Source: Patescibacteria group bacterium
GTDB lineage: Bacteria; Patescibacteriota; Saccharimonadia; Saccharimonadales; UBA4665
Assembly (NCBI GenBank): GCA_030271625.1
Contig: JARXKN010000005.1
Span: 1-42,979, forward strand
Direction: 5' to 3'
DNA: 42,979 nucleotides
Within the stretch, counting starts at the first letter, position 1; each line of letters opens with the position of its first letter. The notes below the pieces were generated by a model that saw only the letters and a list, made by a program, of their open reading frames with translations, was not told the DNA's origin and did no database searches. The position numbers and the translations under genes are program-made. Positions 12,938 through 42,979 of the stretch are shown in pieces.

Positions 12938-15245
12938 AAATTTACAGGTTGTCTTTACCGGAGAAACTGCCGGACTGACGGCTGCATTTGGTGAAGTTCA
13001 AGGCCAAGCGAGCGCCACAAAAGGCAAACTCGAGTCACTAAGCTCCAGTTTGAAGAATATAGGCTCAGACGCTGAAGCAATCGGTCGTAAAATGACCACT
13101 AGCATAACGCTGCCAATAGTGGGCATTGCTGTTGCTAGCGCCAAGATGGCCAGCGATTTTCAGCAACAGATGACTTATGTCCGAACTGATGCCGGTGATA
13201 CTACCGACAATATAGACGAATTAAGTAAATCAGTTTTAAACCTTGCAAAAGTATCACAGTATGGGCCTGACGAACTTGCGAAAGGTCTCTATCATATTGC
13301 GTCCCTCGGACTTCGCGGCGCCGACGCCCTCAATGCACTCAATACAGCCCAGCAAATGGCGGCAGTCGGTGGTGCGAATCTTGAAGAGACGACTTCCGCT
13401 CTAGGCGCGGCATTAGTTACGGGCATCCGTGGCGTACAAGACTACTCAAGTGCTGCCGGAACGCTCGATGCCATTATTGGCTCCGGTAATATGCGCATGA
13501 ACGATTTAATCGGGGCGCTTAGTACTGGCGCTTTAGTCGTATTTAAAAATGCTGGTTTATCACTAACTGACTTCGGTGCTGCACTTGCCACCCTAACTGA
13601 TAACGGTATGCGCGCCGACGAGGCTTCAACCCGACTTAAAATGAGTATATCGCTCATGGAGGCGCCTAGTATGGCTGCCGCTGATGCGATGCGTGCGATT
13701 GGTTTTGCGAGCACCGACCTCGGTTTAGAGATGCGTCAAAAGGGTTTGATACCGGCATTACAAGACTTACAAAAGCATTTGACTGATACCTATGGAGTAA
13801 CTGATTTAGGAAAAACCAAGATAACCCAAGCTGTATCCGCGATGTTCGGTGGTGGCCGCTCTAGCGCTGCCATCCAAACATTACTTGACCAAGTTGACCG
13901 CGTCCAAAGTAAGTTCACCCAAATTTCAGAACAGAGCGGGGAATTTGCTTCCAAAGTTGCCGAACAAGCGCAAACGTCTAGTGCAAAGATAAAGACTGCC
14001 TGGAGCGGTATACAGTCATCAGCAATCACTCTCGGTGGCGACCTACTCCCAACTTTGGCTAGAGCATTTGAATCACTTAGCAAAGGCATCACGTCTTTAG
14101 TCGCATGGTTCGACAAATTATCTCCAAGCACAAAGAAATTTGTAGAAATTATTAGTGTTGTTGCTGCGGCTGCTGGGCCTTTACTGCTGGTTTTAGGTAC
14201 GTTAGCATCAGCACTAGCTGTACTTGCAACCCCGTTAGGGATAGCCGTAGTGGCTTTTACAGCCATTGGCGGCACATTACTTTACATGCAGCTACACTTT
14301 AAAACAGTAACGCTCGCCATAGCCGCAGTAAGAAGAGAATTTGACCATTTGTGGGGTATTGTAAGCCATACTGAGCCATTTATTATCTTAATGCAATTTA
14401 TACACCAGGTCTTTATTCCCGGCCTAAAAGCAATATGGGCAGCTCTTGAGCAAAATGTTGTCCCAGCATTAGAAAAGATGGCGGCCTCTCTTGGTAGGTT
14501 ATGGAACGCCCTAGAGCCTGGCTTAACCGCCGCACTGAAAGTAGTTGGAGCAATCTTAGGCGGCTTGTTACTGGCTGCTATATGGGCTGCAGTCACTGCT
14601 ATTAATCTTATTGTACAAGCGTTTGCTATGTTTATAAGCGCTGTCACAAACGTCATTAACTGGATAAGTAACCTTATAAGCTGGTTTGGTAACTTAGTTA
14701 TGGTTGTTGTTAACAGTGTTCATGCTGTTATAGCTATCTTCTCAAACTTAACTCCAGCTGTTAAAGATGTCATTGGCACCGTTGTAGGCTTGTTTGGTGC
14801 TTTAGGCTCCATGATTCTTGGTGCAGTTGGTAATTTTGGGAGCTTGCTCTACAACGCTGGCCGGTCACTCATACACGGCTTAGTAGCAGGTATTGAGAGC
14901 AGTATCGGGTCAGTAACTTCTGCAGTAGGTCATATAGCGACGTCAGCAGGTAACGCTGTAAGTGGAGCGTTACACTCAGCGCACATCCCTGGTTTTGCGA
15001 TGGGTACCGGCTACGCTCCGGGCGGACTTGCAATGGTGGGCGAAAACGGCCCGGAATTAGTGAACCTCCCTCGGGGCGCTCAGGTGATGAACAATGAGGA
15101 CACCATGAAGACGGTCAATAACCGCTCTGTCACGATTGGGACTATCGTTCTAGCTTCGGCCGGGGCAGTGCAGGAGATGTTTAAACAACTCGACCGGGAT
15201 AACATCTTAGTCGGTAAAGGGCTTAGCCCAGCGAGGGGCATGTAA
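12924..15245 (+). CDS. tail tape measure protein
   Basis: A 773-residue TP901-type tape measure protein. N-terminal coiled coil (about 10-60), TP901 core (about 70-330, with IGRKMTTSITLPIVG, DELAKGLYHIASLGLRG and FGAALATLTDNGM), then hydrophobic segments (about 410-460 and 540-660), and a C terminus with AMVGENGPELVNLPRG that is common in these proteins. By the usual 1.5 angstrom per residue the tail would be about 115 nm. It has no lytic domain that I can see. The stop overlaps the next ATG by one base. Confidence 0.93.
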   Translation: MESTKNLQVVFTGETAGLTAAFGEVQGQASATKGKLESLSSSLKNIGSDAEAIGRKMTTSITLPIVGIAVASAKMASDFQQQMTYVRTDAGDTTDNIDELSKSVLNLAKVSQYGPDELAKGLYHIASLGLRGADALNALNTAQQMAAVGGANLEETTSALGAALVTGIRGVQDYSSAAGTLDAIIGSGNMRMNDLIGALSTGALVVFKNAGLSLTDFGAALATLTDNGMRADEASTRLKMSISLMEAPSMAAADAMRAIGFASTDLGLEMRQKGLIPALQDLQKHLTDTYGVTDLGKTKITQAVSAMFGGGRSSAAIQTLLDQVDRVQSKFTQISEQSGEFASKVAEQAQTSSAKIKTAWSGIQSSAITLGGDLLPTLARAFESLSKGITSLVAWFDKLSPSTKKFVEIISVVAAAAGPLLLVLGTLASALAVLATPLGIAVVAFTAIGGTLLYMQLHFKTVTLAIAAVRREFDHLWGIVSHTEPFIILMQFIHQVFIPGLKAIWAALEQNVVPALEKMAASLGRLWNALEPGLTAALKVVGAILGGLLLAAIWAAVTAINLIVQAFAMFISAVTNVINWISNLISWFGNLVMVVVNSVHAVIAIFSNLTPAVKDVIGTVVGLFGALGSMILGAVGNFGSLLYNAGRSLIHGLVAGIESSIGSVTSAVGHIATSAGNAVSGALHSAHIPGFAMGTGYAPGGLAMVGENGPELVNLPRGAQVMNNEDTMKTVNNRSVTIGTIVLASAGAVQEMFKQLDRDNILVGKGLSPARGM

Positions 15246-16015
15246 TGGCCGGAACAACCCTGTTTTTTGATAACAACAACCTACAGACTGCTAACATCAT
15301 CACGCAGTCAATTGACCACGCCAGTATTCCGCAGAAGGACGCAAAGTTGTACGCCTTGGCCCACGCCTCGGCCTCCACTATACCGTTCACCAGCTACCCC
15401 AGTAAGATGATTACGGTCACGGGGCGCATTTTCCACGATACCGTCGAGCAGCTAGATGACCTACTGGATACCTTCCGAGGCTACTTCACCAACACGGGCG
15501 CTAACTTAGACATTGGTTATAACAACGCTACCCGTCGCTACATCGCTACCGTCAATAGCCTGACCGTTGACCGACCGGGCGGCTTAACCTACGCTGATTT
15601 CAAGATAGAGTTTGTGGCTACCCAGCCCTTTGGCCAGAGTACAACCCCACTAACCCTCGTATCAGCGAGTGGTCGCACCGCCGCCACTTACACCGACTTG
15701 GTTACCTTCTCGGGAACCGCACCTTGGCAGCGGCCAGTCGTTACTATCACTTACACGACAGTCAGCGGTAATGGCAGCATAAACTTTGGTAATAATGCTA
15801 ACGGCCAGCAGCTGACTATCTCGGGCGCCCGCGCAGCCGGTGATGTGATTACCCTAGATGTCAGTAAGAAGTCAGTACAAGTTAATTACGTCGACTATCC
15901 CTTTACCGGCGCCTTCCCCGAGTTCCCGCCTGGCCCACAATCAATGAGCTATAGCGATGCCCTTGGTAGCCGGAACCTGACGTATAACGTGTCTTACTAC
16001 CCGCTGTATCTCTAA
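15245..16015 (+). CDS. distal tail (Dit) protein
   Basis: A 256-residue protein after the tape measure gene, where the Dit protein lies. The N-terminal half (VTGRIFHDTVEQLDDLLDTFRGYF, FKIEFVATQPFG) fits the tail-attachment domain, and the C-terminal half is a beta-rich galectin-like region. It would form the ring joining tube to baseplate. It ends in a 4-bp stop-on-stop overlap with the convergent adsorption operon. Confidence 0.8.
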   Translation: MAGTTLFFDNNNLQTANIITQSIDHASIPQKDAKLYALAHASASTIPFTSYPSKMITVTGRIFHDTVEQLDDLLDTFRGYFTNTGANLDIGYNNATRRYIATVNSLTVDRPGGLTYADFKIEFVATQPFGQSTTPLTLVSASGRTAATYTDLVTFSGTAPWQRPVVTITYTTVSGNGSINFGNNANGQQLTISGARAAGDVITLDVSKKSVQVNYVDYPFTGAFPEFPPGPQSMSYSDALGSRNLTYNVSYYPLYL

Positions 16016-17184: not shown

Positions 17185-20100
17185 TTAGCTTGGAGTGCTT
17201 GGGTTGTTGACCGTCTGCTGGGCTATCAGGCCACGGGTTAGCTTCTCGAAATCAGGGTTCAAGCTTGGCGGTAGGATACCGAGCGTCAGGGTGGCGGCCG
17301 ATGGCGTGTACTCGACGCGGACAATCTGGGCGGTTAGGGTGTCGACAAAGGTGCCGTAACCGTTGAAGCCGACGATTTGGCCCGGCTTGAACTTAGTGAT
17401 GTCCATCGTGGTATCGAGTATGGTGACGGTCGTTTGGTACTGTTCAGCCTGCTGTGACGATACGGCGTTGTTACCGATAGCATTAGCGGTGGCTTGTATC
17501 GTAACGCGGTTGTCACTGCGCCTGTCTAAGCGCTGGCCGTACAGCGTAATGCTGCTATTCCCTTTGTAGACGCTAAAGAGGTTAACCCCAGCGGTGGCAC
17601 CACCAGAGAAATAGACGGTGTTCTTGATGTTCTCGATAGTGGCAATTATCGTGAGGGCGTTGATGTGCTTGCCGTTGGTCAGCGTAAAGTCGGGAGTGCT
17701 AGCGGTATTCTTGAAGTACAGGACATCGGTACCCAAATCGACGTAATAGTAGAAGCTGCTCGGCGCTAGGCTGAGGGCTGTGGTAATAACCTCGTAAATG
17801 CTGGCAGTGTTAAAGGTGTAGCTAATTGCCAAACCGGTGGCATCAACTGAACCAGCGGTGTACTTAACCAGTCCACCCTGGGCGGTGTAGCTGTCGATGG
17901 CTGGCTTGACCATGCCGTTACTAGGGTCGGCCGTCGAGTAAGTGACCGTCGAGGCAGCCCCATTTAGCAGTAGGTAGTTATCCAGTTCTTGGCCATCGGA
18001 GTAGGCGTACACCCGTATCGTGTCTTGGTCTTTGTCGCCACCAAATGACGCCTCCCAGCGTTCCATCTCGCCCATAAACATTGATTTGCCATTAGGGTAG
18101 TACTGGCTAAACTCGAAGACCTGTATTTTGTTACCGTTCTTAATAAGGGTGCTACCCAGCCCGGCGCCGACGATGTTTACGGCACCCTCGGTCAAAATGG
18201 AATCACCAGCCTCAGTTTGCAATGGGTTATTTGACTCATCGTTAATGCTGCCAGCCGAGATGAGAGGGCTTGTATCGGGTGATACTGCTACGTCGATGGT
18301 GATACCGACACCGGTGGTGTTGATGTTCTGGGCAAAGCCAAAGTCAGATATTACATTTGGTAGTAAGCCAAGGTAAGTACCGGCCCGGTTGTAAACTTTG
18401 TATATGTGCGTCTTTGGTACCGGCGCACTCTTTACTAAGTAGGCCCGGCCCGACTCATAGGCATAGCCAATACCCACCAGGTGAGTGATACCGGAGATGT
18501 TCTTGGTAAACGATTGCTGCAGTCGTCCTATACCTGTTTGGGTGGTAGTAACCGCCTTTTGTAACCTGGCGGTACCGGACTCGCTTCTAACTAGGTTAGC
18601 GGCTAGGCGAGCGATACCGGTGCGGGTGGCAGTGAGTACCTGCGCTAGGCGACTAATTCCGGTAACGGTGCTAGTGCGGGTGCTCGCTAGGCGGGTAATA
18701 CCCGGCTGGGTGAAGCTTAACACCTTCTGAAGGCGTGCAATACCTGACTCAGTTGTCACGATGGCTTTTGATAATCGAGCGACACCTGATTGGCTAGCCG
18801 TCAATAACTTGGCTAGCCGCGCAACTGCCGACTGAGTCTTAGTGAGGTTGGAAGCTAGGCGCCCGACACCCGATAGCGTGGTTGTTACCACCTTGGTTAG
18901 CCGAGCAGTACCTGCCTGAGTTCTAGTAACAGCAATACGGAGGTTAGAAACACCAGAAATGGTAAGCGTCAACGCTTTCTGTATGCGCGCGGTGCCGGAC
19001 TCTGTCTTAGTCGCTACACCAGTTAATCGAGCAACGCCAGCTTGAGTGGCGGTCAGAACTTTGCTTAGGCGGGCGACGCCGGGTTGCGTCTTACTAAAGG
19101 CTTTGGCTAGACGGGCAATAGCGGGCTGAGTGGCTGTAAGCGTTTTGCTAAGCCGGGCGACACCGGACTCAACGGTACTGAGCGCCTTAGACAGACGGGC
19201 AATACCAGCTTGGCTAGCTGTGATTATTTTGCTTAGGCGGGTAATACCCGGCTGGGTCTTGGTGAATATTTGCGATAATCGAGCGATACCGAGTTGGGTT
19301 TTGGTTATTGTCTGCTTTAGACGGGCAATGGCGGGCTGGGTAGCGGAACGGCCAATATAGTTAACATTGTCTATGGTGGCGCTGGTTAGAGCGTTATTGG
19401 TTGCGGTCTGGTAGCCAACCACTACTCCTCTGTAAGCGTTCGGAACGGCTGCAATCTGTGAACCAAAAACTGTCCAGCTTAAACCGTCGGTAGAGGTGTC
19501 CCAGTATATGGTTCCAGCCGATAAAGAGTGCCGAATTCTGAGCCATTGGTGGTTTGTTGCATTGTATGTAGCTGAAGCGACAAGTGTATTCTGATTATAG
19601 TAAGCGTTGAGATTTCCGCCTTGAATCTGAAAATCTGCAATGAAGTTGCTACTATTGTCTTTTATAACTATGGGGTAGAAGAAAGCATTTGCACCGGCAC
19701 TGTAACTAACAAGCTGCATTGATAACTGCCCGTCGGTAAAGTCGTACACCTTTAGCGATTCTAAGTAGAATGACGCATTTGTTGAACTACCAGTGGCTTG
19801 CCCACCACTGGTTGTATAGTTAGATGCCGTAGTCCACTTGGAGAACGTGCCGGACGAGAAGTCATCAAAGAGTTTGCTGATAGGGATGGCCAGCGCTGCC
19901 TTACCGGTCTGAGTCGCCGTGACGCCAATCTTTGTAAGCCGAGCGATACCAGAACTAGAATTAGTTACGGTAGCTGATAGTCTCGCCTTACCTGTTTGGG
20001 TACTTATAAGAGCCTTAGATAAGCGGGTCACACCTGATTGAGATGACGGAATGACTTTGCTTAATCTGCTCACACCGGTGCTAGTTTTGGTACGGAGCTG

Positions 20101-21639
20101 AGCGATACGGGATACACCACCGATTGTAGTGCTTAGAGCTTTTTGTAGCCGGGCGACACCATATAGTGTTGCAGCCCCGGTTCCATTTAAGTGGCTAACT
20201 CCCACTTGGGTTTTAGATAATACTTTGGTTAGCCGGGCGACACCACTATTTGTTTTTGAGAACACTTGAGCAATGCGAGACACACCATTGAGCGATGTTG
20301 AGAATATCTTTTGCAGGCGGGCGGTTCCAGACTCTGTTTTTAAAGCAATACCAGTCAATCGGGCTACACCGGTGTTAGTTTTAGTGCCAGCGATTAATAG
20401 TCTGGCCGTACCCGTTTGCGTCTTGGTAAACACCAGCGCCAGGCGGGCGGTTCCAGTTTGGGTATATTTAAAGATACCCGTAAGACGCGCTCGTCCTGCA
20501 ACGGGGTTGCTCTTGTATAATTCTTGGAAGTAAATATTGTTTGTACTACCGCCATCAAGCCAGCTCGTACCGTCCCAGTACAGTATCCCGCCTGGCGTGA
20601 AGCTTGCAACCGTTGAGAATCGTAACAAATAATCATTACTATCGTCATACGCACCACTACGGTCGAATACCATCCAGTATTTAGTACCAGTGGTAAGGCT
20701 TGGCCCGCTCGACCAGTTAAAATCACACAGTACCCCGCCGACATGCCAGTCAAGAGAGTTACCTGAGATGCCATTATCAGCGGTTGCGATTGCGGTGCCA
20801 GGAAGGCCGCTACTATCGGAATAAAGGGTTAAAGTTGCGTTGTCGGTGGATAGGTAGCCATTGCCCAGTTTGACCCGTATCTTACTTAAGGGCGCTGTTA
20901 CAGTAGGAATAAAGGCTTGAGCAAGCTTTGGTTGGTAGGTTTGGCCAAAAAAGAAGTTGCTATCATCTAAGGTCTGACTCTGGTCAACGCCGCCTGAGCC
21001 GGTAGTGCTAACGACCCGCAGCCGGGCAATACCAGCTTGGGTTTTGGCTACAGTCTTTGACAAACGGGCGATAGCAGGTTGTGTCTTAGCTATTAGCACT
21101 TGGAGACGAGCAGTTGCCGGTTGTGCAATACTGACAGCCTTTTGCAGCCGAGCAGTAGCTAGCTGAGTTTTGGTATAGATACCAGTGAGCCTTGCGACAC
21201 CGGTATTAGCCGCAGTAAATACTTTAGCTATGCGGCTAATACCGGAAATCTGTTTCGTGAACGCCTGGGCGATACGCGCAATACCCGGCTGAGTCTTGGT
21301 GAAGCTCTTAGTTAAACGCGCCGCCGCAGTTTGAGAGGCGGTTAACACTTTGGATAGGCGTGCAGTGCCGGACTCTAGGCGAGCGTATATACCGGTTAGC
21401 CGGGCGACACCTGGAATTGTGGTTGTTAGCGCTTTTGATAACCTTGCGATACCGGTTTGGGTCTTGGTAAACACCTGAGATAGGCGCGCTACACCAGATT
21501 GCGTCTTGGTTAGCGACTTCTGAAGCCGTGCCGTACCGGGCTGGGTGCTAGTCCCCGTAATAGCTAATCGGCCTAGTCCAGTCTGGGTTTTAGTCCCAGT
21601 GAAGCTTGTTGCTGGGCCGAAGAGTAGTAAGAGGCTCAT
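17185..21639 (-). CDS. giant repeat-bearing baseplate hub/tail protein
   Basis: A 1484-residue protein. Residues 15-210, 378-584 and 764-1071 consist of a 14-residue tandem repeat (pattern TxTQxGxARLxKxx) with the key Arg every 14 residues: 14, 15 and 22 copies, 51 in total. Two globular inserts separate the blocks: 215-380 (choice-of-anchor-like, AQAFIPTVTAPLSKIRVKLG) and 588-763 (LamG-like jelly roll, DDFSSGTFSKW, GTIYWDTSTDG). Residues 1076-1484 resemble the siphovirus Gp37-like/tail-hub domain (YKVYNRAGTYLG, GEMERWEASFGGDKDQD). The repeats probably form a long rigid stalk carrying sugar-binding domains. Having hub at the C terminus and stalk at the N terminus is unusual. Confidence 0.8.
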   Translation of the reverse strand: MSLLLLFGPATSFTGTKTQTGLGRLAITGTSTQPGTARLQKSLTKTQSGVARLSQVFTKTQTGIARLSKALTTTIPGVARLTGIYARLESGTARLSKVLTASQTAAARLTKSFTKTQPGIARIAQAFTKQISGISRIAKVFTAANTGVARLTGIYTKTQLATARLQKAVSIAQPATARLQVLIAKTQPAIARLSKTVAKTQAGIARLRVVSTTGSGGVDQSQTLDDSNFFFGQTYQPKLAQAFIPTVTAPLSKIRVKLGNGYLSTDNATLTLYSDSSGLPGTAIATADNGISGNSLDWHVGGVLCDFNWSSGPSLTTGTKYWMVFDRSGAYDDSNDYLLRFSTVASFTPGGILYWDGTSWLDGGSTNNIYFQELYKSNPVAGRARLTGIFKYTQTGTARLALVFTKTQTGTARLLIAGTKTNTGVARLTGIALKTESGTARLQKIFSTSLNGVSRIAQVFSKTNSGVARLTKVLSKTQVGVSHLNGTGAATLYGVARLQKALSTTIGGVSRIAQLRTKTSTGVSRLSKVIPSSQSGVTRLSKALISTQTGKARLSATVTNSSSGIARLTKIGVTATQTGKAALAIPISKLFDDFSSGTFSKWTTASNYTTSGGQATGSSTNASFYLESLKVYDFTDGQLSMQLVSYSAGANAFFYPIVIKDNSSNFIADFQIQGGNLNAYYNQNTLVASATYNATNHQWLRIRHSLSAGTIYWDTSTDGLSWTVFGSQIAAVPNAYRGVVVGYQTATNNALTSATIDNVNYIGRSATQPAIARLKQTITKTQLGIARLSQIFTKTQPGITRLSKIITASQAGIARLSKALSTVESGVARLSKTLTATQPAIARLAKAFSKTQPGVARLSKVLTATQAGVARLTGVATKTESGTARIQKALTLTISGVSNLRIAVTRTQAGTARLTKVVTTTLSGVGRLASNLTKTQSAVARLAKLLTASQSGVARLSKAIVTTESGIARLQKVLSFTQPGITRLASTRTSTVTGISRLAQVLTATRTGIARLAANLVRSESGTARLQKAVTTTQTGIGRLQQSFTKNISGITHLVGIGYAYESGRAYLVKSAPVPKTHIYKVYNRAGTYLGLLPNVISDFGFAQNINTTGVGITIDVAVSPDTSPLISAGSINDESNNPLQTEAGDSILTEGAVNIVGAGLGSTLIKNGNKIQVFEFSQYYPNGKSMFMGEMERWEASFGGDKDQDTIRVYAYSDGQELDNYLLLNGAASTVTYSTADPSNGMVKPAIDSYTAQGGLVKYTAGSVDATGLAISYTFNTASIYEVITTALSLAPSSFYYYVDLGTDVLYFKNTASTPDFTLTNGKHINALTIIATIENIKNTVYFSGGATAGVNLFSVYKGNSSITLYGQRLDRRSDNRVTIQATANAIGNNAVSSQQAEQYQTTVTILDTTMDITKFKPGQIVGFNGYGTFVDTLTAQIVRVEYTPSAATLTLGILPPSLNPDFEKLTRGLIAQQTVNNPSTPS
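18427..19350 (-). repeat. 14-residue (42-bp) coding repeats, block 3, 22 copies
   Basis: Protein residues 764-1071. The Arg (or its replacement) falls at 773, 787, 801 and so on to 1067 with no shift in register; N899, H1053 and Y1067 are the exceptions. Codons differ between copies, so it is an old, selected protein repeat, not a fresh DNA expansion. Confidence 0.9.
19888..20508 (-). repeat. 14-residue (42-bp) coding repeats, block 2, 15 copies
   Basis: Protein residues 378-584, key Arg at 385, 399, 413 and on to 567, with His at 483. The last unit (near 582) is shifted by one residue, the only break in register. Confidence 0.9.
21010..21597 (-). repeat. 14-residue (42-bp) coding repeats, block 1, 14 copies
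   Basis: Protein residues 15-210, with Arg at 24, 38, 52 and on to 206 in exact 14-residue steps. It follows a short hydrophobic N terminus (MSLLLLFGP). Confidence 0.9.
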
Positions 21640-24472: not shown

Positions 24473-24841
24473 TTAGAACTCTTGTATTACTTCCTGGTTT
24501 TTACCCTTACTATCGTTGTACTGGTAACCAAAGCCAACGCCGACCTGCCGGGTTTCGCCGAGGAAATCACCGTTCAAGTTGTGGTCACGCTCCATGTATT
24601 TGTAGCGGATAGGTCGAGCGTTCTTAGGTACTTCAACCCAGTCGATGTCGGTGCGTTTGTTGCTGTGGTAGACCGAGAAGCGCACTAGTTCACCGTGTTC
24701 GGCTTCTGGCTGCTTGTTTAAGATGGCGTAAAAGATGTTGTGTTTGTCACAGTAGGGCGATTTGTCGTCGTTTTCGTGTTCAGTCAGTATAAAGCCGTCA
24801 GCGTATTCGGCTTCGATACTTCCGTCGTAGGGTGTTGCCAT
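24473..24841 (-). CDS. hypothetical protein, 122 aa
   Basis: A charged, soluble protein, unlike the Thr/Ser-rich structural neighbours (DGFILTEHENDDKSPYC, DIDWVEVPKNARPIRYKYM). SD AAGGAG at 8-nt spacing. It sits one base before the next gene's start. Could be an assembly factor; function unknown. Confidence 0.65.
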   Translation of the reverse strand: MATPYDGSIEAEYADGFILTEHENDDKSPYCDKHNIFYAILNKQPEAEHGELVRFSVYHSNKRTDIDWVEVPKNARPIRYKYMERDHNLNGDFLGETRQVGVGFGYQYNDSKGKNQEVIQEF

Positions 24842-24875: not shown

Positions 24876-25379
24876 CTAGGACTCAGTCCAAGAAGCGGTA
24901 ACAGTCACGCTGGTGATGTCACCAGGGCCAGCGGTTGTACCGACAGCCAGTTGGGTGCGGTAGGCGTTGGCGTACATAGTGCCACCGGCAGTTGTGCTGG
25001 TAGTACCGGCAGTGAAAGGAGTGGTGCTAGAGCTAAAGTTAGCGGCAGTACCAGTGGTGCTGGCGGCGCTTGCTGGCTGGATGGTGGCAACTGGCTGGGT
25101 GTAGCTAGTGACTACATCAGCGTTAAGTGCAACACCGGTTCCAGGAGCGGCAGTGCTAACCTTGTAGGTTAAAGCACTAAGGCTGTTCCAAGTTCCAGCG
25201 AACTTTAAGGCTTGTACCTTAGCGAAGCTGTACTGTGTACCAGCGGCTGGTACGGTGATTGGAGAAGCAGTGTAGGCAGTCGTGCTGTCGTCGATGTTCT
25301 TCCAGTTAACTTCTGCTCGTGATGCGGTTTCGGTTGAACCGGCGCCGTTATATTCTGACCATGTTTGCGTTGATGCCAT
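24876..25379 (-). CDS. abundant virion protein candidate (decoration-like)
   Basis: A 167-residue Ala/Ser/Thr-rich beta protein (MASTQTWSEYNGAGSTETAS, SALTYKVSTAAPGTG, DITSVTVTASWTES). Its upstream sequence is almost the same as that of the tail tube gene, including AAGGGGA at the same distance from the ATG, which suggests high late expression. A capsid decoration or fibre-base protein would fit. No family recognised. Confidence 0.6.
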   Translation of the reverse strand: MASTQTWSEYNGAGSTETASRAEVNWKNIDDSTTAYTASPITVPAAGTQYSFAKVQALKFAGTWNSLSALTYKVSTAAPGTGVALNADVVTSYTQPVATIQPASAASTTGTAANFSSSTTPFTAGTTSTTAGGTMYANAYRTQLAVGTTAGPGDITSVTVTASWTES

Positions 25380-32691: not shown

Positions 32692-33369
32692 TTAGTTGAA
32701 CCTCACCACAAACACACGGTCGTGCCACTGGATAGATTGGTTGTAGCTAAAGAATAAGCGATTGAGTTGGCCCATTGCCTCGAAGTCGACATCGCCCACC
32801 TTAGCCATTTCACTAACCCACCAAGACATCAAATGGTTGTTTAAGTGGCCGTGGTCACCATGGATGCTATCCAGCCCTTGATGCGGCGCTGTCCGGCCAT
32901 TGATAACAAAACAGCCCCAATCAGCAACCCGAGCGAACTGTTTTAAAACGCCCGGGACATCTTTGCTCTCGATATGCTCGAAGAACTCAACGCCGGTTAC
33001 TATACCGAACTGTTTATCACTGAACTGCTTGTAAAATGAGCTGTCCATAGCGCTGGCTAGATGAAAGCCATCACCATGTAATTGTTTAGCTTTTCCGATG
33101 GCATGTTCGCTGATGTCAAAGCCAACTGCATCCCAACCTTGACGGTTTAGCTCACTGGTCGAGTACCCGTAAGCGCAGGCCGCGTCTAGGGCAGTACGTT
33201 TATCAGTGCGGCCCTTCATAACGTCGCTCATCATGCGGTACTGGTCACGAACAATGCCCTCACAACCGGCATAGTCGCCATAGCCGGACTTTTCGCCGCC
33301 GACGAAGTACTCCGTGTCGTAGACCTTGGCATCAAACTTACGGTCAGTATAATCGTGGAATTGGGCCAT
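32692..33369 (-). CDS. SAM-dependent methyltransferase
   Basis: A 225-residue class I methyltransferase. SAM-binding motif I LDAACAYGYS (61-70), motif II VGFDIS (82-87) and a GVEFFEHI block near 125. The N terminus (KVYDTEYFVGGEKSGYG) resembles methyltransferases found in sugar-modification loci. Pairing with a glycosyltransferase suggests joint synthesis of a modified glycan, but a protein or small-molecule substrate is equally possible. It overlaps GroEL by one base. Confidence 0.82.
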   Translation of the reverse strand: MAQFHDYTDRKFDAKVYDTEYFVGGEKSGYGDYAGCEGIVRDQYRMMSDVMKGRTDKRTALDAACAYGYSTSELNRQGWDAVGFDISEHAIGKAKQLHGDGFHLASAMDSSFYKQFSDKQFGIVTGVEFFEHIESKDVPGVLKQFARVADWGCFVINGRTAPHQGLDSIHGDHGHLNNHLMSWWVSEMAKVGDVDFEAMGQLNRLFFSYNQSIQWHDRVFVVRFN

Positions 33370-34937
33370 TACAGTTCCTCCCCGTTATCTTCGATGGTGA
33401 CAATGGCCGCATCGGTTATTAGGAACATGATGGCAGCACTGGCGGCGTTGACCAGAGCCGTCTTCACGACTAATGCCGGGTCAATCACGCCGGAGTTGTA
33501 AGCATCGACTACTTCGCCAGTACGGAAGTCAAACGTCTTTGTAGTGTTGTCGACAACGGCCTGTAAATCTCCCTTATCCAGTTCGATGTCGGCGTTGGTG
33601 GCAATCTGACGGAGCGGGTATTTAAGCGCTTGGCTAACGACCCTTGTACCGTAGTCATCACCAGCTAGACGTGAGGCTGCGCGGTACAAGGCAGCACCAC
33701 CGCCAGTGACGATGCCCGTAGACAAAGCTGCTTTTGTAGCGTTAACGGCATCTTCTACCCGCTTTTTAACCTCTTCGCGTTCGCTATCTATAACCCCACC
33801 AACCTTAATGCTGGCAGTCTTACTCTGTAGCTTAGCAATGCGCTCTTTAAGGCTCTCTTCTTCTAAAGCTTTCACGTTTGGTAACTGGGCCTGGAGTTCT
33901 TCAATACGGGCTTGTGTATCACCGCCGCCGTCCATGAGGGTTATAACGTGGGCGCTAGCGGCTAGCGTACCAACTAAGCCAGCATCACTAAATGTAAAGT
34001 CTTTAAGTTGCTTGCCGTCACGTTCGCTAAGCAGCGTAGCGCCGGTTGCAGCACAGATGTCACGGACATAACCTTCACCGATTGGCCCATACGAGATGAC
34101 GCGTAGCGGTAGCAAATCGAAATTACCTTTAATGCGGTTTTGGATGATGTTCTGTAAAGCGGCTCCGTCAACATTGTTAGCAATAAGCACGCCTTGCTTC
34201 TTACCTGCTTGGGCTAGCTGCTCCATGATGCGCACCACTTCTCCGGGCTGAGTAATGCTGTAGTCAGTTACGACGATAGGCACGTCATTGTAAACGGCCT
34301 GTTGGAAGGCTCGGTGATTGACAAAGAATGGACTGAGCAGGCCACCATTGACCCGTAGCCCTTCAGTACGCGCGACTTCTGTTTTGGCCAAGCCACTGTC
34401 TTCAATAGTAATCACACCATCGGCACCAATCTCGGCTACTAATTTGGCAATCATGCCGCCGAGCGCCTCATCACGACTGGATATAGCGGCGATGTCAGTC
34501 AGTGACTTAATATCGTCTTGCTTAATGATGACGGTTTGCTTGTTAAGGTCATCAAAAACTAGTTTAATGGCTGATTCAATTTCACGACGGAGCGTGACGG
34601 CTGAGACACCAGCGCTGAGTAAACGATAACCCTCGTTGACAATGGCCTGTACGAGGACGCTAGCTGTAGTCGTCCCGTCCCCTGCAATATCATTAGTTTT
34701 TTGGGCGGCTTGACGTACATACTTAGCTCCTATGTTCTCGAACTTATCTTTTAAGAATGTGTTATTAGCAACCGTGACACCATCGTTGGTAGTTAATGGC
34801 CATGAAAACTGGTCAAAATCGATACTGACGTGGTGGCCCATTGGCCCCATCGTGGTTTTAATAATGTTAGCGGCCTTGTCGATGCCAATGCGTATCTTGT
34901 CGGTGGCCTCAGCCCCTATGCGGACGTCATGCAACAT
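33369..34937 (-). CDS. groEL: GroEL-like chaperonin
   Basis: A 522-residue phage chaperonin that folds client proteins with ATP. With the ATG at 34937 (GGGAG, 6-nt spacing) the ATPase residues fall at D52 (NDGVTVA) and D87 (GDGTTTA), the same numbers as in E. coli GroEL. Apical and intermediate regions are complete (ATGATLLSERDG, STGIVTGGGAALYRA). The usual Gly/Met C-terminal tail is missing; it ends VTIEDNGEEL. Start overlaps the end of the GroES-like gene by 11 bp. Confidence 0.95.
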   Translation of the reverse strand: MLHDVRIGAEATDKIRIGIDKAANIIKTTMGPMGHHVSIDFDQFSWPLTTNDGVTVANNTFLKDKFENIGAKYVRQAAQKTNDIAGDGTTTASVLVQAIVNEGYRLLSAGVSAVTLRREIESAIKLVFDDLNKQTVIIKQDDIKSLTDIAAISSRDEALGGMIAKLVAEIGADGVITIEDSGLAKTEVARTEGLRVNGGLLSPFFVNHRAFQQAVYNDVPIVVTDYSITQPGEVVRIMEQLAQAGKKQGVLIANNVDGAALQNIIQNRIKGNFDLLPLRVISYGPIGEGYVRDICAATGATLLSERDGKQLKDFTFSDAGLVGTLAASAHVITLMDGGGDTQARIEELQAQLPNVKALEEESLKERIAKLQSKTASIKVGGVIDSEREEVKKRVEDAVNATKAALSTGIVTGGGAALYRAASRLAGDDYGTRVVSQALKYPLRQIATNADIELDKGDLQAVVDNTTKTFDFRTGEVVDAYNSGVIDPALVVKTALVNAASAAIMFLITDAAIVTIEDNGEEL

Positions 34938-35175
34938 GTTCAACTCCCACAACGTCTTCTTCTTTAGCTAAGGTATATTCCACGTCTTGGATAGTGGTTG
35001 TAGGATAGTCGTTAGGGATAAGATAAACTGCACAGCCCTCTTTTACGCCGCTAACATCTCCGTCTAAAGCCAGAACTTTGTATTTGTGTTCTTTGTTATC
35101 GTTGACATCAAATTGGCTTGAACCACCCTTGACTGCTTCAAGCAGCAAGTAATTGTTTTTTACGACTAAACCCAC
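34927..35175 (-). CDS. groES: GroES-like co-chaperonin
   Basis: An 82-residue protein. I chose the GTG at 35175 because GGGGG lies upstream at good spacing. It has the GroES layout: YLLLEAVKGG at the start, a mobile-loop region (SSQFDVNDNKEH) where GroES has its GroEL-binding loop, then YKVLALDGDVSGVKEGCAVYL and the typical C-terminal strand EYTLAKEEDVVGVEHV. Divergent, so recognised mainly by pattern and by its place before GroEL. A phage-specific lid, as in T4 gp31, is likely. Confidence 0.8.
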   Translation of the reverse strand: MGLVVKNNYLLLEAVKGGSSQFDVNDNKEHKYKVLALDGDVSGVKEGCAVYLIPNDYPTTTIQDVEYTLAKEEDVVGVEHVA

Positions 35176-37818: not shown

Positions 37819-38099
37819 TTATTCTCCTCCCATTAGGGTAGTAAGGGCTTTACTTACGTCTTGTATAGCAATGTTATAGCCGTGTTCAGCCGAGTTAAGC
37901 GGTATTTTGTCAGTACCTACCTTTTCATCTGGTATTACTTCCAGTACAGCGGATTTTAGGGCTTGGACAGCTTCTTTTAAACCACACTCGCAATAGTCCC
38001 AGTTTTGGTCTTTCCATGCATACGGACAACCAGCAGAGTATTCGTGGGGCTTGTCGTGGTAATCTTCAAACAAGCTGTCTATCGTTATAGTAGGTGAAG

Positions 38100-38103
<4 letters not shown>
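37819..38103 (-). CDS. hypothetical protein, 94 aa
   Basis: N-terminal part with three Cys (CPYAWKDQNWDYCECG), then a helical C-terminal half (AVQALKSAVLEVI, NIAIQDVSKALTTLMGG). Start overlaps the Gly-rich gene's stop. No family recognised. Confidence 0.7.
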
Positions 38104-38363
<260 letters not shown>

Positions 38364-42930: not shown

Positions 42931-42979
42931 TGGAGCCACGAAAGAGATTTGAACTCTTGACCCCTTCCTTACCATGGAA
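42931..42979 (-). tRNA. tRNA-Thr(GGT), 3' half only
   Basis: On the minus strand: anticodon arm CTTCC-type stem with loop ATGGTAA (anticodon GGT), T arm AAGAG-TTCAAAT-CTCTT, the 3' acceptor strand, a T discriminator and encoded CCA ending at 42931. The matching 5' half (acceptor GCCACGA and D arm) is absent from the other end of the window, so this is the piece carried in attP or present at attR to restore the host gene. Confidence 0.85.
42959..42979. repeat. att core, right copy (21-bp terminal direct repeat)
   Basis: Same 21 bases as 1-21, here in the context of the tRNA 3' half. The expected crossover is in the 7-bp anticodon loop at 42969-42975. Confidence 0.8.

Follow-up and report, generated by a model that had tools for sequence, protein, structure and literature searches.

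The gene at the center of this locus occupies positions 17185..21639 on the minus strand of the window, i.e., the whole stretch of 42,979 nucleotides analyzed here. It codes without interruption for a protein of 1484 residues, in which three arrays of a 14-residue repeat, separated by two globular-looking modules, precede a C-terminal domain related to phage tail hubs. The window corresponds to one whole contig (C8) of a host genome of 1.15 Mb that is 98% complete. An identical 21-bp att-like site is found at both of its ends (1-21 and 42959-42979) and again at the end of another host contig (C15), whose final 55 nucleotides are the initial 55 nucleotides of the window. Read by eye, the site falls in the 3' half of an apparent tRNA gene; ARAGORN called no complete tRNA there. 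Given the 21-bp site, the 55-nucleotide overlap, and an integrase gene at 1195-2025, the virus is best read from its sequence as a provirus integrated in the host genome. It further carries a gene for GroEL (33369-34952) adjoining genes for a glycosyltransferase and a methyltransferase, with a second GroEL being coded elsewhere in the host genome (contig C6), and a tandem array of a 6/12-nucleotide GCCGTTGCCGTA-type repeat (38075-38338) surrounded by small genes.

We defined the repeat units by the core [GA]-x-[AST]-R-[LI] recurring with a spacing of 14. Block 1 (residues 16-211; 21007..21594, minus strand) comprises 14 units of 14 residues, with the turn Gly positions running from 21 to 203 and a net charge of +30. 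Block 2 (residues 377-588; 19876..20511, minus strand) has 15 units from position 382 to 579 and a net charge of +29, while block 3 (residues 765-1072; 18424..19347, minus strand) has 22 units from position 770 to 1064, the final one (SGRAYL) being degenerate, and a net charge of +39. This analysis established the 51 copies counted in the first-pass annotation, together with their 14-residue register, which is exact bar a lone 15-residue step in block 2 (564 to 579), and their near-invariant Arg, present in 46 of the 51 units. The consensus of the window units is T-K-T-Q-[STP]-G-[VI]-A-R-L-x-K-[VA]-[LF]: both the Leu/Ile following the Arg and the Gly/Ala at the turn position (position 6) are seen in 51/51 units, and Pro5 in 10/51. 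Together, the three blocks have a net charge of +98 and no Asp, with Thr and Ser accounting for about 25% of their residues. A pattern of five consecutive in-register units matched the window 10 times, as against 0 matches in 100 dinucleotide-preserving shuffles. Between units, the mean nucleotide identity is 47% and that of third codon positions 30% (saturated), with each of the six Arg codons occurring at the near-invariant Arg. These figures agree with the long selection that had been suspected from codon differences between the copies, and indicate that the protein sequence of the repeat has been held by selection over a long divergence. We looked for higher-order periodicity or recent duplication in the arrays and saw neither.

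The two interruptions of the arrays had been described as sugar-binding-like domains. That they are real, globular-looking modules was confirmed; their sugar-binding-like character was supported only in part, one being a choice-of-anchor R domain and the other having no name. Module 1 (about residues 212-376; 20512..21006, minus strand) matches the choice-of-anchor R model NF041539 of NCBIfam (choice_anch_R) with 33.2 bits, just over the cut-off of 30, which was its sole family match. Module 2 (residues 589-764; 19348..19875, minus strand) lacks a curated family and is related to part of gp13 of the Streptomyces phage Hiyaa, an actinophage minor tail protein, and of a protein from the phage contig L002 (tblastn, 2e-6; phrog_14065, 2e-11; 37% to L002). 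Neither module matched a carbohydrate-binding module (CBM) family. Homologs of module 2 are also joined to repeats with a period of 20 residues in two long phage proteins (L002:8612-14989 and L244:4795-8127), which might represent a second repeat family with a similar role.

The C-terminal hub domain and its partner Dit

The remaining domain (residues 1073-1484; 17188..18423, minus strand) gave no meaningful match in Pfam or NCBIfam and just a weak match to a tail family among the PHROGs (phrog_400, 0.0047). By iterating the alignment of this domain through its relatives, we recovered a gene from an IMG/VR phage contig (L234:7995-9701) that has the same start point and shows 38% identity to it over 250 residues and 32% over the first 165. 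That gene lies directly after those for the tape measure protein (TMP) and Dit, with a similar gene in L235, and the order TMP-Dit-hub recurs in L234, L235, and L095. Further, an AlphaFold2 model of the domain, itself of low pLDDT (40.6), retrieved phage and VgrG hubs as its top Foldseek matches, namely those of PhiTE, Mu gp44, the MuSo2 43-kDa protein, 80alpha, and T4 gp27 (E-values down to 1.3e-8, probability 1.00). Homology to the post-TMP-Dit gene and these fold matches thus bear out the hub domain noted in the first-pass annotation, and they identify the C terminus, by sequence and model, as a complete gp27-like siphophage tail hub.

A gene for Dit, which usually partners the hub, is present at 15245..16015 on the plus strand (phrog_33, 5e-14; 28% to the L234 Dit). 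The hub gene lies close to it but on the opposite strand: the plus-strand operon ends at Dit and faces the minus-strand operon. No second hub was found by family searches over part of the ORFs in the window, and none lies beside Dit. As the hub domain is complete and Dit has no other hub gene beside it, the window protein most likely functions as the hub of the tail. It differs from its homologs in L234 and L235 in an N-terminal extension of 1,070 residues, which they lack, and the genes that follow the hub gene in the window and in L234 show no similarity to each other. Elsewhere, a protein from another contig (L076:783-3452) has the repeat followed by a domain resembling Prophage_tail (PF06605), which scores under the cut-off of Pfam; it is a possible second case of repeats N-terminal to a hub-like domain.

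The repeat in uncultured phages and its structure

We scanned IMG/VR with a degenerate DNA pattern that requires five units in register and then searched the six-frame translations with a profile. The search for the repeat pattern proposed in the first-pass annotation was productive: the repeat was detected at 34 loci on 33 uncultured viral contigs, some of which are near-duplicates. It is also present in a prophage of G048, a genome of the host's family that came from a search of the nearest relatives, whereas among 380 genomes drawn from its phylum the host alone matched. The recovered set amounts to 813 distinct units, with the consensus over relatives being T-[QK]-T-[QI]-T-G-[VKI]-A-R-I-x-x-T-T (Arg9 in 86%, Ile/Val/Leu10 in about 100%) and indel-free runs extending to 47 units. 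The net charge is positive in 35/35 member proteins, at +0.9 to +3.0 per unit. In the collection of cultured phages that we searched, no relative of the arrays was found. In searches with the whole protein against cultured phages, plasmids, and GTDB contigs, the arm and the hub matched nothing other than short modules or weak sequences of similar composition, and the two plasmid matches were weak, at 22-23% identity; among the matches listed from a pattern scan of genome contigs, those scored were helical or weak. No model in Pfam, NCBIfam, or the functionally named PHROGs describes the repeat. Thus, the earlier claim of a new repeat stands in that no curated family names it, but not in that it is common to many uncultured phages; the 14-residue unit looks like a widespread and undescribed building block of phage attachment arms.

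Given 26 in-register rows as input and run only as a monomer, AlphaFold2 drew each unit as two strands, without any helix (mean pLDDT 48.9, pTM 0.31), and Foldseek searches with this model found nothing significant in either the PDB or the viral models. The low-confidence prediction for the repeat is all-β with no significant match to a solved fold, and it speaks neither for nor against a rigid solenoid of the kind that the stalk suggested earlier would call for. Independently of that model, the strong pairs in the covariation within units include several of the i,i+2 type (12-14, 9-11, and 7-9). Moreover, where position 7 is Lys/Arg, the Arg/Lys of position 9 is lost more often than in the other units (49/186 versus 50/627; Fisher p 4e-10, the units not being independent of each other). 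The i,i+2 covariation and this compensation between positions 7 and 9 furnish good sequence-based evidence for the repeats adopting a β structure, with positions 7 and 9 probably disposed on one face, while favoring no particular fold or oligomer.

The same data bear on the alternative of a flexible linker, in which the cationic, Thr/Ser-rich repeats would be largely disordered and would tether the modules loosely to the hub. The low AlphaFold2 confidence would fit such a linker, as would the Thr/Ser content, the want of Asp, and the low-complexity character of the arrays. However, Ile/Leu10, Ala8, and Arg9 have been retained through saturated synonymous divergence, the runs are long and free of indels, the compensation between positions 7 and 9 is position-specific, and the strands drawn by AlphaFold2 are regular; hence, we regard a disordered linker as unlikely, if a serious competitor.

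Two known folds were considered and rejected as templates for a β-structured repeat. A T-x-T motif suggested a β-helix of the ice-binding type, for which the β-helix matches obtained with Foldseek were all insignificant, and the left-handed β-roll of YadA likewise has 14-residue repeats, for which no match to the YadA head repeat was obtained in Pfam up to an E-value of 1. More tentatively, the unit might form a new ordered polycationic β stalk, perhaps an interwoven trimer in which the Arg residues stack into a ladder. This stalk would serve phages of numerous hosts as an exchangeable spacer, attached to the head in some and to the tail hub in the present virus; we consider this fuller picture possible but doubtful.

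Conserved neighbors, module swapping, and the point of attachment

The relatives usually have a separate gene for the repeat protein; it lies near the capsid genes, often with the head-tail adaptor genes on its other side, and adjoins the genes for two small unnamed proteins, A and B. Both recur as neighbors of the repeat gene across diverse uncultured phages, with A present at 11 of the relatives' repeat loci, and both have been retained in the window despite the fusion to the hub. Here, A is coded at 24876..25379 (minus strand; E-value 3e-40 with an HMM made from relatives, 51% to the L028 protein), and B follows it, as in the relatives, at 24473..24841 (minus strand; 47% to the L028 protein). 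Neither matched any model in PHROG, Pfam, or NCBIfam.

This neighborhood raises the alternative that the window protein is a fiber attached to the head or neck, with its hub domain being a fusion no longer located at the tail tip. Four of the contigs (L044, L060, L071, and L095) have capsid-side genes on one side of the repeat gene and head-tail adaptor genes on the other, and in most of them A and B adjoin it; the retention of A and B in the window and the placement of Hiyaa gp13 in the same slot point in this direction as well. Against this, the hub of the window protein is complete and no other hub gene accompanies Dit, which makes a head or neck location improbable for this virus. Nevertheless, as the repeat gene of many relatives lies near the capsid genes and not with a hub, the attachment point could vary within the family, being the head in those relatives with a capsid-side repeat gene.

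The family also shows an exchange of modules on a constant array. The contigs L028 and L029 have neighboring genes that are 96-100% identical, yet their repeat proteins are distinguished by the N-terminal heads and by an insert of ~170 residues in the array. Other members bear yet other globular modules, such as that of the G048 protein, which by eye resembles sialidase-like blades. Such swapping is typical of attachment proteins, and its occurrence between near-identical phages supports a likely role for the family as adhesins.

The proposed arm and its relation to known systems

Taking these observations together, we favor as the probable explanation a predicted adhesin arm of the virion, attached to the tail hub of a temperate siphovirus of a reduced-genome bacterium, with the repeats acting as a β-rich spacer. 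The complete hub, a trimeric ring that would close the tail tube below Dit, would carry an N-terminal arm of 1,070 residues, in which three arrays of the cationic β-rich 14-residue repeat space two globular modules. As hubs of the gp27-like fold are trimers, there may be three such arms per virion. The arrays would serve as spacers and the globular modules would contact the cell surface, with the positive charge potentially helping to hold the arm near the anionic envelope; a putative reach of the arm through a capsule or a host-bound layer, as envisaged in the first-pass annotation, is plausible. The view of the array as an α-helical coiled coil, 14 residues being two heptads, can be set aside as highly improbable, since its profile matches in Pfam and the PDB, including the spike HR1 and a fragment of a trimeric autotransporter adhesin, track the 7-residue spacing and are opposed by the turn Gly/Ala in every unit, the Pro5 residues, the Thr/Val/Ile-rich composition, the i,i+2 covariation, and the absence of helix in the low-confidence AlphaFold2 model.

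The protein is ordinary in kind, i.e., a phage adhesin made of modules and repeats, and unusual in two traits: its undescribed yet widespread 14-residue repeat and the location of the hub C-terminal to a 1,070-residue arm. Few repeat folds are known for phage fibers, and a strict 14-residue unit with a near-invariant Ala-Arg-Ile core offers a tractable structural target as well as a marker by which attachment proteins could be annotated in environmental viromes. Through its fusion to the hub, the repeat has a known anchor point here, in a virus of a bacterium with a reduced genome, a group whose phages are little known.

Among known fiber repeats, the triple β-spiral of the adenovirus shaft, reovirus sigma1, and some phage fibers resembles the present repeat in the length of its unit (15 versus 14 residues), its strand-turn-strand organization with a Gly/Pro turn, and its use in fibers. 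In the pattern of the spiral, the positions +1 and +3 from the conserved turn Gly/Pro are hydrophobic. In contrast, the third position after the turn Gly6 of our repeat (position 9) is Arg in 86% of the units; further, its 14-residue register is strict, without variable loops, and no structural match links the two. Hiyaa gp13, which is annotated as a minor tail protein, combines a homolog of module 2 with short basic repeats, and its gene lies between those for the major capsid protein and the head-tail adaptor, as in many of our relatives. However, its repeats have a period of 20 and lack the 14-residue ARI motif, and are thus an analog rather than a shown homolog.

With the Tal/gp27-like hubs (Mu gp44, 80alpha Tal, and T4 gp27), the window protein shares a complete hub domain, a fold match, and homology to the post-Dit gene of L234. 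Siphophage-type hubs are usually N-terminal, and the classical Tal follows this plan with its extension on the C-terminal side, whereas the hub of the window protein forms the last 412 residues (1073-1484), after the arm of 1,070 residues. The hub domains of lambda gpJ and T5 pb3 begin at a more internal position (PMC7291167). The evolved Dit and evolved Tal proteins have CBM decorations set into the core domain (PMC7291167); the window protein is like them in being a probable tail-tip protein with extra globular, putatively glycan-binding modules, and differs in having its two modules spaced out by repeat arrays on the N-terminal side of the hub.
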